From: an uncultured Bacteroidales bacterium
Lineage (GTDB): Bacteria > Bacteroidota > Bacteroidia > Bacteroidales > P3
Length of the DNA stretch: 64,000 bases
Direction: 5' to 3'
Assembly: GCA_905233475.1 (NCBI GenBank)
Contig: CAJOEN010000012.1
Location: forward strand, 62,001-126,000
The position numbers and the translations under genes are program-made. Shown here in pieces: positions 11,366-57,756 of the stretch (the first letter of the stretch is position 1; every line of letters begins with the position of its first letter). The notes under the pieces were generated by a model that searched no databases, had not been told where the DNA came from, and was given only the letters and a program-made list of their open reading frames with translations.

Positions 11366-12610
11366 CTATTCGCTCTTTACCAGGCAGTTGTCCAGCTGGC
11401 GGCAAAGGTCGTCCTTGTCCATTTTCTGGCCGATGAACACGAGTTTTTGCATACGGTCTCCGTACAGGTCGTCCCAGTCGTTGAGCACTTGCGGATTGGC
11501 CATCATAAACATCTGTAGTTCCTCGGGTTGCATTGCCGCATACCATTGACCAACATCACGTAGCGAAACTTGTTTGCCTACTTGGTCGAAAACGTAGCAG
11601 GTATCGTATTCTTCACGGAAATAGCACACGCCTTTGGCACGTATCACATTTTTGGGCAAACGGCTCACGAACTCGTCGAAACGTCTTAGATAGAACGGTT
11701 TGCGGGAATAGTAAACAAATGTGCCAATACCGTATTCCTCGGCCTCACCCTCGTCGTGATGATGGTGGTGATGGTGATGTTCGTGGGATTCTTCGTGGTG
11801 GTGGTGATGGTGTTCGTGTTCGTCGTCATCATGTTCGCCTTCGTGGTGGTGGTGAATGTGTAGGTCGTCGTCATCATCGTGAATATCCTCCACCACACGC
11901 ACCCAAGTGGCCGAAGTCGCAGTTTTCTCGAAATCAAACATGTGGGTGTGCAGTATCTGTCCGAAGTCCACATTGCCGTAATCGCAGGTGATAATGCGCG
12001 CTTTTGGGTTGAGGGTATGCACCAACTGACGTATGCGTCCGAGTTCCGACCCCGATACCTCGGAAGCTTTGTTTATCAATACAATGTTGCAGAACTCGAT
12101 TTGCTGTATTATAAGATTTTCCAAATCATCTTCCTCGAAATTGCGTGCGGTGAGGTCGGTGCCGCCGAAGTCGTTTTGCATGCGCAGAGCATCCACCACG
12201 GTAACTACGCAGTCGATACGCGGCAGGCCGTTGCGGGTGTATTTTTCTTCGATAGTGGGCATGGAACAGATGGTTTGCGCTATGGGTTCGGGTTCGCATA
12301 TACCGCTGGCTTCTATTACGATGTAGTCGAACTTACGTTGGGCGATGATTTCGCTCAGTTGTTCAACGAGATCCATTTTCAAGGTACAGCAGATACAGCC
12401 GTTTTGCAGGGCTACTAAACTTTCGTCCTTTTTACCCACAACACCGCCTTGCTGAATGAGGTCGGCGTCAATATTCACTTCTCCTAAATCATTCACAATC
12501 ACCGCAAAACGCAATCCCTTGCGGTTGTTCAAGATATTGTTTACCAAGGTTGTTTTTCCGCTACCCAAATATCCAGTAAGCAGAAGTACAGGTATGCTGT
12601 ATTGTTCCAT
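11366..12610 (-). CDS. CobW/COG0523-family GTPase with histidine-rich segment
   Basis: COG0523 proteins are GTPases that deliver or manage metals, often zinc. This 414-residue member has Walker A GYLGSGKTT (13-21), the family's metal-binding GCICC (71-75), a Walker B/switch region around DYIVIEASG, and NKASE in the guanine-recognition position. A very histidine/acid-rich segment (about residues 244-290, bases 11741-11880) separates the GTPase domain from the C-terminal CobW_C domain; such segments usually bind zinc or nickel. No partner metal enzyme gene is adjacent. It is 110 bp from ddl on the same strand. Zinc is the likeliest metal, by family analogy only. Confidence 0.9.
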   Translation of the reverse strand: MEQYSIPVLLLTGYLGSGKTTLVNNILNNRKGLRFAVIVNDLGEVNIDADLIQQGGVVGKKDESLVALQNGCICCTLKMDLVEQLSEIIAQRKFDYIVIEASGICEPEPIAQTICSMPTIEEKYTRNGLPRIDCVVTVVDALRMQNDFGGTDLTARNFEEDDLENLIIQQIEFCNIVLINKASEVSGSELGRIRQLVHTLNPKARIITCDYGNVDFGQILHTHMFDFEKTATSATWVRVVEDIHDDDDDLHIHHHHEGEHDDDEHEHHHHHHEESHEHHHHHHHHDEGEAEEYGIGTFVYYSRKPFYLRRFDEFVSRLPKNVIRAKGVCYFREEYDTCYVFDQVGKQVSLRDVGQWYAAMQPEELQMFMMANPQVLNDWDDLYGDRMQKLVFIGQKMDKDDLCRQLDNCLVKSE

Positions 12611-15770: not shown

Positions 15771-16427
15771 ATGAAAGACTCCCTGATTATTGTTTCGGGC
15801 GGCATGGACTCCATAACGCTACTCTACGACAAACGCGACGACATAGCCCTTGCCGTTACCTACGACTACGGCAGCAACCACAACCGTCAGGAGCTGGAAT
15901 ACGCCCTCTACCACTGCCGCACCCTCGGCATCGAGCAGCTGGTGATACCCCTCGATTTCTTCTCACGCTATTTCAAATCGTCGTTGCTGCAAGGTCCCGA
16001 CGCCATTCCCGAATGCGCCTACACCGACGAGAGCATGAAATCCACCGTTGTGCCTTTCCGCAACGGCATTATGCTTGCCATCGCCTGCGGTCTGGCCGAA
16101 ACGAGAGGCCTGCACAAAGTGCTGATAGCCAACCACTCCGGCGACCACGCCATCTATCCCGACTGCCGCGAGGAGTTTATCAACGCCATGTCGCACGCCA
16201 TGAGTAGCGGCACTTACGAAAACATCACGGTATCAGCACCTTACACCAACATCTCTAAATCCGACATCGCCAAGATAGGCAAAAGCCTCGGCATAGACTA
16301 CTCCAAGACCTACTCGTGCTACAAGGGCGGAATCAAGCACTGCGGCCGTTGCGCCACCTGCATCGAACGCAAGGAAGCCCTGCGACTGGCTGGAATAAAA
16401 GACAACACGGAATACGAGTTCAGTTGA
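15771..16427 (+). CDS. queC: 7-cyano-7-deazaguanine synthase QueC
   Basis: QueC uses ATP and ammonia to convert 7-carboxy-7-deazaguanine to preQ0. The 218-residue protein has the PP-loop SGGMDS (9-14) and the C-terminal zinc site built from four cysteines (CYKGGIKHCGRCATC). The length is normal. Its stop codon (16425-16427) lies inside the first units of a 7-bp repeat array that fills the gap to queD, so the end of this gene may have been touched by the array. Confidence 0.97.
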   Translation: MKDSLIIVSGGMDSITLLYDKRDDIALAVTYDYGSNHNRQELEYALYHCRTLGIEQLVIPLDFFSRYFKSSLLQGPDAIPECAYTDESMKSTVVPFRNGIMLAIACGLAETRGLHKVLIANHSGDHAIYPDCREEFINAMSHAMSSGTYENITVSAPYTNISKSDIAKIGKSLGIDYSKTYSCYKGGIKHCGRCATCIERKEALRLAGIKDNTEYEFS

Positions 16428-16505
16428 AAATTGAAAGTTGAAAGTTGAAAATTAATTCGGAGTTCGGAACTCGGAAGTCGGAACGAATAATTACTAATTA
16501 CTCAT
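16422..16505. repeat. In-phase heptad repeat array between queC and queD
   Basis: Twelve consecutive 7-bp units keep the same phase but change identity in blocks: AGTTGAA/AATTGAA (4 units), a transition unit AATTAAT, TCGGAAC-like (4 units), then GAATAAT, TACTAAT and TACTCAT. It begins in the last codons of queC and ends just before the queD ATG. The even 7-bp spacing through three different unit sequences cannot be explained by one simple tandem duplication. Confidence 0.75.
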
Positions 16506-16513
16506 TACAAAAA

Positions 16514-16864
16514 ATGTTCTACGTATCAAAAAGAATGGAAATAGCTGGTTGCCACCAACTTACCCTCCCCTACCCCAGCAAATGTCAGGGGATGCACGGA
16601 CACAACTGGATTGTAACCGTTTATTGCAAGGCCGAACAGCTTGACGAGAACGGCATGGTGGCCGATTTCCACGTCATCAAAGAGAAAATCCACGGCTACC
16701 TCGACCACGGCAATTTCAACGACCTGCTGCCTTTCAACCCCACCGCCGAGAACATAGCCCGCTGGATAACCGAACAGATACCCGGCTGCTACAAGGCCTC
16801 GGTGCAGGAGAGCGAAGGCAACGTGGCCGTGTATGTGGTGGACGACAAGTGCTACGAACTATGA
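16514..16864 (+). CDS. queD: 6-carboxy-5,6,7,8-tetrahydropterin synthase QueD
   Basis: QueD converts dihydroneopterin triphosphate to 6-carboxytetrahydropterin in the queuosine pathway. The start is taken at ATG 16514 (MFYVSKRMEIAGCHQL), giving 116 residues, the normal size; the in-frame ATG at 16445 lies inside the heptad repeat and would add 23 repeat-encoded residues. Zinc ligands are the His in GCHQL and the two in HGH. The catalytic Cys lies in CQGMHGH, the CxxxHGH signature. The last bases overlap the queE start in an ATGA junction. Confidence 0.95.
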   Translation: MFYVSKRMEIAGCHQLTLPYPSKCQGMHGHNWIVTVYCKAEQLDENGMVADFHVIKEKIHGYLDHGNFNDLLPFNPTAENIARWITEQIPGCYKASVQESEGNVAVYVVDDKCYEL

Positions 16865-38236: not shown

Positions 38237-39166
38237 ATGAAAAAAGTATTTTTATTGATGGCAATGGCGGTCTTTGGTTTGGCTGCCGCATACGCACAGC
38301 AGCAGTATCATCCTGTACCGTTCCAAATGGATAATGTTGTATGGTACGAGTATTATGTAGATTTAGAAGCATATGAGACAAAACATAACAAAGGAAATTG
38401 GTATCATTACATACAATTGTCACTGGACACGAGCAATACTATACAAGGTAGCTATAAATACAAGAGGGTTAATATTAAATGGGATTCGTGTAGCGTGTTT
38501 TTGCCAACTAGCATATACGTAAGGGAAGATACAGTGAACAGACGAATCTTTTATAAAAGTACTTATTCATCTGCTGAACATCTCATATATGATTTTTCAT
38601 TGAATGTTGGAGACACAGCTCTTACACAATCATTACTAATAGTACAGTCCATCGACACAGTCAATATTGGTGGTGTGTTGCGCAAAAAAATAAACTTCTC
38701 GCACAATGAGGATATTGATGTTGGGTTTCGCAATGGAGCCAATTACCAGCAGGAGTTGTCTTGGATAGAAGGTATAGGTAGCACGCAGGGTCTTATATAC
38801 CCCATTTGTATTCGCGAATATGGTGCCAATGTCCTTGTCTGCTATTCCTCTAACGACTCGGTAATATACCACAACTCACACTTTACAGATTGCTTCCCCT
38901 CCAACGCCATCGCCACTCCCGAAACCATAGCTCCTGTTACTGCCTATCCCAATCCTGCCAAGGATCGCATTACCTTCGATTTCGGCGGGGCGCAGTTCGA
39001 GACCTTGCAGGTGATAAACACGGTAGGCATGGTGGTACGCGAGGTGGGCATTGGCGGCCAAACGCAGTACTCTCTGCCGCTGAAAGGCCTGCCCGCAGGT
39101 GTGTACGTGTACCGCCTGCAAAATGGAGAAACAGCCACGCAAGGGAAGTTTATAGTTGAGAGTTAA
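38237..39166 (+). CDS. Exported protein with T9SS sorting domain (paralogue 1)
   Basis: The 309-residue protein has a signal peptide (MKKVFLLMAMAVFGLAAAYAQ). A passenger of about 210 residues lacks recognisable motifs. It ends in a T9SS type A domain (about 232-309, YPNPAKDRITFDFGGAQFE to GLPAGVYVYRLQNGE). The passenger pattern (DFSLNVGDTAL, EDIDVG, GIGSTQGLIYPI) is shared in style with the next gene, so the two are paralogues. Their 3' ends are almost identical at DNA level, including the region past the stop codon. Function is unknown. Confidence 0.8.
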   Translation: MKKVFLLMAMAVFGLAAAYAQQQYHPVPFQMDNVVWYEYYVDLEAYETKHNKGNWYHYIQLSLDTSNTIQGSYKYKRVNIKWDSCSVFLPTSIYVREDTVNRRIFYKSTYSSAEHLIYDFSLNVGDTALTQSLLIVQSIDTVNIGGVLRKKINFSHNEDIDVGFRNGANYQQELSWIEGIGSTQGLIYPICIREYGANVLVCYSSNDSVIYHNSHFTDCFPSNAIATPETIAPVTAYPNPAKDRITFDFGGAQFETLQVINTVGMVVREVGIGGQTQYSLPLKGLPAGVYVYRLQNGETATQGKFIVES

Positions 39167-39213
39167 TAATTGATAGTTAAGAGTTTAGAATTAAGAGTTA
39201 AGAGTTGGGCAGG
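38945..39213 (+). repeat. Duplicated T9SS 3' cassette, copy 1
   Basis: These 269 bases cover the sorting-domain codons, the stop, and 47 bases beyond it. Aligned without gaps to 40030-40298 (offset 1085), they differ at about 14 positions. The last 99 bases (39115-39213) are identical. The downstream part is itself a heptad array. Confidence 0.9.
39154..39209. repeat. Heptad repeat array after paralogue 1
   Basis: Eight in-phase 7-bp units (AGTTGAG, AGTTAAT, AATTGAT, AGTTAAG, AGTTTAG, AATTAAG, AGTTAAG, AGTTGGG) overlap the last codons and stop of the gene. The same array follows paralogue 2 at 40239-40294. Confidence 0.75.
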
Positions 39214-39264: not shown

Positions 39265-40251
39265 ATGAAAAGATTAATCGTTTTATTAGTTTTTGCGGTC
39301 TTTGGAGTGGTCGCTACCAATGCACAGACAGGATACCAGTCGTTTCTGAATGGCGACACTATTCAGTGGAATATTGATAATTTTTCTGAATCGGGCATAT
39401 CTCATTATGCCTTTTGCGCTACCGATACTTTTTATATAGACAGCGTTCCCTGTAAAAAACTGAATTGTTTAAGAGTTTATAACCGTAACGGGAATTATTT
39501 TTATCAAGAATATCCTTCTAACACAAGACAATACTTGTGCGAGGACACTGTTACGGGACGGCTGTGGATGTATTTTTGTAACAATAGCGACACAACACAT
39601 TTTACAAAAAAACTATTAGTGGATATGTCGCTTAATGTGGGAGAGACTTTTTCATTACCATTGTATAACTACAGAGGTTATTATCGCGACGATACCTTGG
39701 TTTACATTGTGGATAGCATAAAAAATATTAACGGCAAAAAACATATATTCATGAGTTATATTGATAATCGTCACGATATTTATCCCGCAAACATATTTAT
39801 AGAGGGAGTTGGCAGTGCTCAATTTTTGTTTTTCCCAATAGCAAGTCATTGTCTCAATTTTTCTTATTCTGGGCAAGAGGAACGTTTTTTGCTATGCAAT
39901 TTTAAAGATGGAAACATAGAGTATTATAATTATTATTATTTTTATGAAGAAAATCCAAATGTGTCGGATTGTTTTCCACCTGTCAGCGAAATTACGCAAG
40001 TTGGTTCCACATACATAAAAATCACCGTCTACCCCAACCCTGCCAAAGACCGCATAACCTTCGATTTCGGCGGGGCGCAGTTCGAGACATTGCAGGTGAT
40101 AAACACGGCAGGCATAGTGGTGCGCGAGGTGCGCCTTGGCTGCCAAACGCAGTACTCCCTGCCGCTGAAAGGCCTGCCCGCAGGTGTGTACGTGTACCTC
40201 CTGCAAAATGGAGAAACAGCCACGCAAGGGAAGTTTATAGTTGAGAGTTAA
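39265..40251 (+). CDS. Exported protein with T9SS sorting domain (paralogue 2)
   Basis: The 328-residue protein begins with a signal peptide (MKRLIVLLVFAVFGVVATNAQ). The passenger (about 22-250) is Tyr/Asn/Asp-rich and resembles paralogue 1 in layout: LVDMSLNVGETFSLP parallels DFSLNVGDTAL, and GVGSAQFLFFPI parallels GIGSTQGLIYPI. The T9SS domain (about 252-328) is nearly identical to that of paralogue 1, while the passengers have diverged much more. That contrast suggests gene conversion or recent cassette spread at the 3' end. Function is unknown; surface or secreted location is inferred from the sorting domain. Confidence 0.8.
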   Translation: MKRLIVLLVFAVFGVVATNAQTGYQSFLNGDTIQWNIDNFSESGISHYAFCATDTFYIDSVPCKKLNCLRVYNRNGNYFYQEYPSNTRQYLCEDTVTGRLWMYFCNNSDTTHFTKKLLVDMSLNVGETFSLPLYNYRGYYRDDTLVYIVDSIKNINGKKHIFMSYIDNRHDIYPANIFIEGVGSAQFLFFPIASHCLNFSYSGQEERFLLCNFKDGNIEYYNYYYFYEENPNVSDCFPPVSEITQVGSTYIKITVYPNPAKDRITFDFGGAQFETLQVINTAGIVVREVRLGCQTQYSLPLKGLPAGVYVYLLQNGETATQGKFIVES

Positions 40252-40298
40252 TAATTGATAGTTAAGAGTTTAGAATTAAGAGTTAAGAGTTGGGCAGG
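40030..40298 (+). repeat. Duplicated T9SS 3' cassette, copy 2
   Basis: This is the partner of 38945-39213, with no insertions or deletions. Similarity stops abruptly after GGGCAGG at 40298. The heptad array occupies 40239-40294. Confidence 0.9.
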
Positions 40299-57077: not shown

Positions 57078-57081
57078 TTTT

Positions 57082-57116
57082 ACAATTAATAATTAGTAGT
57101 GAGTAATTAGTAATTT
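57082..57116. repeat. Heptad repeat array upstream of the radical SAM gene
   Basis: Five in-phase 7-bp units (ACAATTA, ATAATTA, GTAGTGA, GTAATTA, GTAATTT) fill the space just before the ATG. The complement contains ATTACTAATTACTCA, also found in the array before queD. Confidence 0.6.
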
Positions 57117-57127
57117 TTGATTTCCTA

Positions 57128-57598: not shown

Positions 57599-57714
57599 GA
57601 CTTGCAGGTGTTTGACGTGAGAAAAAATGGTTTCTGTGCTTAATAACGACAAGCATTTTATATTATTGTCCGAATGTGCAACTTGAAAGTCGGGACGGTT
57701 TATTAAAGAAATAA

Positions 57715-57756
57715 GCAATTAGTAATGAATAATTTACAATTGACAATGAACAATCC
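57715..57756. repeat. Heptad repeat array between the thioredoxin-like gene and cdd
   Basis: Six in-phase 7-bp units (GCAATTA, GTAATGA, ATAATTT, ACAATTG, ACAATGA, ACAATCC) lie 19 bp downstream of the thioredoxin-like stop. Confidence 0.6.

Follow-up and report, generated by a model that had tools for sequence, protein, structure and literature searches.

The queC-queD locus

The stretch of DNA analysed here (the window, 64,000 nucleotides) belongs to contig C12 of our focal genome, G000, which comprises 2.30 Mb in 60 contigs. It carries queF, queC, queD and queE in a single direction, all with Pfam support; queE is supported as a radical-SAM protein only and takes its name from its position. 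The open reading frame of queC (15771-16427, plus strand; Pfam QueC PF06508, 1.2e-55) closes with a TGA codon at 16425-16427. Downstream lies queD, of the PTPS family (16514-16864, plus strand; PF01242, 2.8e-24), whose start we set by comparison with congeners. The gap between queC and the queD ATG at 16514 is 86 bp in G000. Since queF, queC, queD and queE are co-directional, the repeat array between queC and queD is likely to be transcribed within the que operon. A search of Rfam across 16300-16700 gave no match at E ≤ 1. Elsewhere in the window, a minus-strand gene (11366-12610) encodes a probable CobW/GTPase-like protein with a long histidine-rich stretch in its translation.

A period-7 array of three blocks

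Across 16422-16505, 55 of 77 positions are identical at lag 7, followed by 40 of 70 at lag 14 and 27 of 63 at lag 21. The best run of 56 positions holds 42 lag-7 matches, well above the 26-33 seen in 10 first-order Markov shuffles of the whole window, which bears out the original prediction of a period of 7 throughout this interval. The lag-7 score is unsurpassed in the window, the runners-up being arrays near 39,147 and 40,232. The three predicted classes of unit, AGTTGAA, TCGGAAC and TACTAAT, indeed follow one another in that order, and TRF reports three blocks of the array as separate repeats.

Block 1 (16422-16449, plus strand) consists of AGTTGAA, AATTGAA, AGTTGAA and AGTTGAA, and reads away from queC. 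Its first unit, at 16422, includes the queC stop TGA, and the array therefore starts inside queC; the predicted extent from the queC stop to queD was right about the array and wrong about where it begins. Block 2 (16454-16488, plus strand), identified by direct reading and congener comparison, comprises AATTCGG, AGTTCGG, AACTCGG, AAGTCGG and AACGAAT. Block 3, TAATTACTAATTACTCATTAC (16488-16508), was assigned by score to the minus strand, on which it reads as AATTAGT and AATGAGT, and stands 5 nt 5' of the queD ATG. This strand call is weaker than those for blocks 1 and 2, because AATT is its own complement. The unit TAACTGA is absent from the array.

It had also been claimed that the heptads run without a phase break. 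Phase between unlike units is meaningful because the units share the motif ARTT (R, A or G), and on that frame the claim fails: by direct reading, the AATT at 16450-16453 (plus strand) is followed by the next AATT, at 16454, after 4 nt instead of 7. This is the sole break. From 16454 to 16509 the ARTT frame runs unbroken, the five units of block 2 being continued by AATTACT, AATTACT and CATTACA. Three units of the array, AACTCGG, AAGTCGG and AACGAAT, depart from the core.

Heptad arrays across the genome and the phylum

The focal array is one among dozens in its genome. Our census sample for G000, the window plus 20 stretches from contigs with repeat matches (464 kb), contained 29 arrays of period 7 at a score threshold of 14, and 0, 2, 2, 1, 0 and 0 arrays of periods 5, 6, 8, 9, 10 and 11, respectively. 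The original prediction had named shuffled sequence as the check on the intergenic period-7 signal, and the signal passed: at scores of at least 11, 42 period-7 arrays occurred in the real sequence against 0, 0 and 1 in three order-3 Markov shuffles, and intergenic lag-7 identity was 0.300 compared with 0.275 in shuffles, with an additional peak at lag 21.

Further plus-strand arrays in the window lie at 39147-39206 (ARTT type, beginning AGTTTAT, AGTTGAG, AGTTAAT and overlapping a called stop codon by 20 nt), at 40232-40291 (a second copy of the former), at 57079-57123 (AATTAGT type, filling a short gap) and at 57706-57754 (degenerate). The first two belong to a duplicated segment of 275 bp (38939-39213 and 40024-40298), whose copies are 1085 bp apart and 94% identical and end in the same heptad array. 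Dispersed motifs, namely GCCGAAGGC-type palindromes and TTTACAAGATTTACAAGAT, are shared in mid-gap among five loci (L032, L034, L133, L142 and L145); amid these heptad-bounded gaps they look like a separate repeat family.

Of 296 genomes from across the phylum, 148 contained a strict pattern of ARTT and four successive NNNARTT. Among near relatives it occurred in 30 of 61 genomes, and patchily, with 74-208 matches in the four congeners and none in several sister genera. A 6-spaced version of the pattern was found in 1 of 25 array-rich genomes and an 8-spaced version in 16 of 25, while G000 has 0 matches to the 8-spaced against 74 to the 7-spaced version. The reversed-pattern control of this search is not a clean one in this case: reversing AGTTGAA yields a rotation of the same unit. 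Octanucleotide arrays with an ARTT core, AGTTAAGT, AATTGTTA and AGTTTATA (L401, L408 and L417), come from genomes that also have heptads, and several contigs of genome G046 terminate in such arrays. Period 7 is thus not absolute.

Unlike units share a core

When 47 arrays were aligned with strand and rotation left free, they converged on A (.94), A/G (.93), T (.94) and T (.86) followed by three loose positions, with 5.34 bits; 30 column-permuted nulls did not exceed 3.71. ARTT was present in 39 of 49 majority units, taken one per array, where letter shuffles gave a mean of 12.7 and a maximum of 22. Neighbouring units differ at rates of.074 for A,.316 for R,.093 and.098 for the two T positions, and.298,.157 and.282 for the remaining three, so that the ratio of change at A, T, T to that at NNN is 0.36; the lowest value in 500 permutations was 0.66. 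Unlike units therefore share a core, ARTT plus NNN.

These data qualify two further claims made for the focal array. The first, that its period is conserved and its sequence is not, is right for the period only: ARTT is conserved in the arrays, so sequence too is kept in part, ARTT mostly remaining and NNN varying. The second, that slippage would have produced one sequence, is weakened by whole-unit changes and stepwise blocks, which fit slippage combined with point mutation; the conserved ARTT core goes beyond what slippage by itself accounts for.

Arrays point outward from genes

We examined the position of 121 intergenic arrays, of which 43 and 23 came from two G000 samples and 55 from 12 other genomes of the phylum. 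Genes were called with a home-made codon model, which for example placed the queD start late, and arrays were dropped if they lacked a called gene on both sides or had strong shorter periods; the regions from other genomes surround ARTT matches, and these genomes are mostly draft. Read in the ARTT direction, 68 of the 121 arrays lay within 10 nt of a coding edge on their 5' side, 14 on their 3' side and 10 on both. Random placement in the same gaps predicted about 34 near the 5'-side edge. Over 13 genomes, 58 arrays were flush on the 5' side only, as opposed to 4 on the 3' side only, the flush edge being a stop codon when the array is in sense and a start when it is antisense. The flush criterion was picked on the first sample and then tested on the remaining ones. 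Polarity owes its strength to these flush counts and not to the counts of u5 < u3, which taken alone reached 16 of 23 in sample 2 (p = 0.09) and 34 of 55 in the 12 genomes (p = 0.10). Octad arrays had u5 < u3 in 6 of 7 strand-clear cases; two were flush on the 5' side, none on the 3' side. The gradient of unit purity towards the boundary that directional growth of arrays would predict was not significant in G000 (12:11), the 12 genomes (9:13), TAACTGA loci (29:16, p = 0.07) or tRNA-region loci (9:5), which counts against such growth.

Conservation of a core amid variable positions is what one would expect of a binding platform, on which one protein per 7-nt unit of RNA or DNA, recognising ARTT, regulates or insulates the neighbouring genes. 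MacGregor (2015; PMC4679880) has proposed binding of S1, Csp or CsrA-type proteins for TAACTGA repeats upstream of starts, and RRM proteins have been reported as RNA-binding regulators in Bacteroides. However, arrays that are in sense after stops and antisense before starts present no single transcript strand, and a few arrays also adjoin tRNA genes. We consider such a platform an unlikely explanation. In its RRM version it was rejected: none of the four array-rich congeners (G000-G003) matched RRM_1, while the control was positive in Bacteroides. The tRNA edges (129 tRNAs) had 8 arrays nearby, 5 outward and 3 inward; within 12 nt, 4 pointed outward, two of these at a single locus, and 1 inward, numbers too few to serve as a non-translated control.

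A filter imposed by translation offers another account, in which arrays arise in any orientation and only those survive that provide a stop downstream of a gene or keep the sequence ahead of a gene free of start codons. It accords with AGTTGAA, AGTTAAG and AGTTAGG, which carry stops in all three frames, and with the finding that queC and another gene take their stop codons from arrays. Nevertheless, CGG-type arrays, which have neither a stop nor NTG on either strand, are still polar: 13 had an edge no more than 15 nt away on their 5' side and none had one that close on the 3' side, with u5 < u3 in 20 of 22. Likewise, AGTTATC, the outward strand of TAACTGA, is free of stops and follows the same polarity. 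These two kinds of array largely refute the translation filter, and we regard it as very improbable.

Gaps with at least two strand-clear arrays numbered 23, and in these the order of arrays was '+-' in 16, '++-' in 1, '+++-' in 1, '++' in 3, '--' in 2 and '-+' in 0. The focal gap agrees with this polarity rule, having block 1 at the queC stop and block 3, of weaker strand, 5 nt before queD. The order '+...-', thus seen in 18 of 23 gaps, would also result if the arrays were the two stem arms of an inverted-repeat element or RNA hairpin filling the gap. Arms do tend to match in genomes G093 and G226, and one gap between co-directional genes (G093, L200:7990-8092) is a single long hairpin with matching heptad arms (-33.7 kcal/mol, z -6.6); Rehm et al. 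(2015; PMC4692102) report convergent pairs from two genomes of Xanthomonas, 70 in one and 75 in the other. In G000, however, arms from the same gap match no better than arms from other gaps, and the focal array RNA has no predicted structure (folding z +0.65). The hairpin as a general cause is ruled out for G000 by these two results, and overall we judge it distinctly unlikely.

Polarity in cyanobacteria and other phyla

TAACTGA, the repeat known from other bacteria, has the complement AGTTATC, which fits ARTTNNN. Our cyanobacterial sample was fetched via TAACTGA itself, by a four-unit scan that gave 80 loci from at least 111 stretches. In 57 of 65 cyanobacterial TAACTGA arrays the nearer gene was on the 5' side, and 31 arrays lay within 15 nt of an edge on that side compared with 3 on the 3' side. 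The same preference was seen in Bacteroidota and Balneolota (6 of 6), Parabeggiatoa (3 of 3) and other phyla (4 of 5). Turning outward the 72 cyanobacterial arrays that are flush with exactly one edge, with no assumption of ARTT, yielded 5.21 bits as opposed to at most 4.07 in 20 random-orientation nulls. With TAACTGA units removed, the same test on 42 arrays still gave 3.88 bits compared with at most 3.03. The predicted likeness of the focal array to the heptanucleotide repeats of cyanobacteria is thus upheld: the period is equal, and TAACTGA and other heptads there share the polarity rule.

Unit number and recurrence among congeners

We compared G000 with the congeners G001, G002 and G003, one genome per species, in comparisons that are not independent of one another. 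The array starts within the queC stop codon in all four. Block 1 has 4, 5, 6 and 5 AGTTGAA-type units in G000, G001, G002 and G003, respectively, and by eye the units next to TTCGG are identical in the four species, the extra units lying on the stop-codon side. A TTCGG block follows block 1 in every case, exact between G000 and G001, present twice in G003 and one unit shorter in G002. The queC-queD gap measures 86, 294, 302 and 313 bp in the same order of genomes. At the 3' end of another gene there are 4 units in G003, 2 in G002 and 0 in G000; a further gene end has 4 in G003, 3 in G001 and 0 in G000; and at one more, four diverged units are retained in all four species.

The 28-mer at 16456-16483 has an exact copy at the corresponding position of G001 and two in G003. 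Its identity in three species, at a locus where QueC is about 94% identical, hints at constraint or conversion rather than free drift. The 28-mer TTCGGAGTTCGGAACTCGGAGTTCGGAA is found verbatim at 7 places in G003 and 3 in G001. By eye, several of its copies come directly after a stop codon, and a terminator-like hairpin lies 3' of one such copy and of one variant copy. The recurrence is real and may reflect a mobile 28-bp cassette, but the congeners compared differ by whole units at one place, which unit gain would account for equally well.

A gradient of unit types is seen in an array of 18 units at L051:16895-17021, which passes stepwise from AGTTAGG (6 units) through AGTTAAG (7) and AATTAAG (3) to AATTGAT (2) and provides the stop codon of the upstream gene. 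G001, whose gap is short, lacks a counterpart of this array, and the counterpart in G002 has other tails. In G003, the orthologous gap (L116) is longer by about 760 bp, which lie between heptad remnants and may include a small ORF.

A proposed directional repeat-making process

Taken together, the whole-unit differences between species, the composite strings recurring at unrelated loci, the retention of ARTT and the outward arrays best support repeat-making at the DNA level, by gain and loss of whole units, dependent on ARTT and directional relative to constrained sequence. We think it somewhat probable that the focal array is a composite member of this widespread, dispersed class of intergenic heptanucleotides, a by-product of slippage-type events with no function specific to queC or queD. 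Units would be made by slippage or template switching, for which realignment would need ARTT; units that lose the core would, because of this need, cease to multiply. Near-identical arrays may exchange sequence ectopically. Growth would proceed towards the 5' end of the ARTT strand, a direction that we infer from the positions of array ends, until purifying selection on coding sequence halts the spread at the gene edge; such directional growth would make arrays pile up there. The queC-queD array would then be a tolerated spacer, transcribed but without any role of its own in connection with the queuosine genes. Against dependence on the core stand AACTCGG and AAGTCGG, which break ARTT and yet persist.

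At telomere fusion points, strands of defined polarity meet head to head. The polarity and order of heptad arrays match this arrangement, as would be expected if breaks in gaps had their 3' ends extended with heptads and, once capped in this way, were closed again head to head. Against such end-healing, congeners keep the same flanking genes at the few orthologous gaps compared, and RVT_1 has no match in the array-rich genomes G026 (98% complete, 175 strict matches) and G046 (91%, 259), which leaves a telomerase-like or DRT10-type reverse transcriptase unsupported as the maker. We hold end-healing to be highly unlikely. Neither an RRM protein nor a recognisable reverse transcriptase is required for the arrays.

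Directional repeat-making could be extended to a single old process, operating across phyla, that adds 7-nt or more rarely 8-nt units in a direction fixed with respect to the border of constrained sequence, with core, direction and period as the marks of one polymerase or end-joining activity. This is speculative, and we rate it improbable. If it were true, a defined strand would point outward from genes and meet its mirror image within the gap, the polarity would be that of telomeric repeats at fusion points, and many gaps would be built in this way.

Relation to known heptad systems

Heterocystous cyanobacteria contain STRR sequences, tandem intergenic heptanucleotides in many copies. Our arrays resemble them in being heptanucleotide, tandem, intergenic and numerous; the units of the focal array presumably differ from STRR units. 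In phase-variation repeats, changes in unit number between strains switch a gene; in our arrays unit number varies between species.

Excess heptamer repeats in bacterial genomes, as cited in PMC4692102, parallel our intergenic period-7 excess; they are cited there in connection with counts and the idea of a polymerase footprint, and not with a core or a polarity. The polarity itself is not new. Rehm et al. (2015; PMC4692102) published it for two Xanthomonas genomes, with the unit GGGAATC, and for Nostoc PCC 7120, with GGGGA(C/T)T; these repeats lie nearer the ORF on their 5' side, on average 28 nt as against 160 nt, whatever the direction of the ORF. Our arrays share with these G-rich heptads their period, intergenic position, heterogeneous units, proximity to the 5'-side ORF, convergent pairs, frequent four-unit size and variation in length between related species; the focal array likewise consists of tandem 7-bp intergenic units, with block 1 overlapping the queC stop. 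Rehm et al. look to G-quadruplexes, and say that the function remains to be found. The common period, polarity, convergent pairs and four-unit size would favour a similar structural role here. Yet our arrays are without G-tracts, AT-rich and built on ARTT, with several unit types per gap; most types keep the same polarity without being G-rich, and GGG, on which G-quadruplex tracts depend, is absent from 16422-16508. A G-quadruplex or related structure is therefore extremely unlikely.

MacGregor (2015; PMC4679880) described TAACTGA direct repeats in Beggiatoaceae, cyanobacteria and five Bacteroidetes, with 147 of 170 sets oriented towards a start codon and the largest class ending 1 nt upstream of it; that study favours translational control and treats one unit. 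As there, our heptads are intergenic and lie near starts, the complement AGTTATC fits ARTTNNN, mixtures with other heptads occur in some species, and gaps of relatives can be array-free; the NNN differs. The start-adjacent AAYT orientation may be represented at queD by block 3, 5 nt upstream, but AATT is self-complementary.

Among open-access papers searched by title and abstract, a set in which subscription journals are mostly absent, none connects the present observations with one another or reports an ARTT core. Heptad arrays have so far been reported piecemeal, as STRR, TAACTGA or GGGAATC, each with its own functional idea. To these reports our study adds a shared core, and a polarity that is independent of G-tracts, stops and start codons. 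If core and polarity rule span phyla, explanations through G-quadruplexes or start codons become unnecessary as a general cause, and the question of why the unit is seven nucleotides long turns into a testable one about directional repeat-making at the edges of genes.
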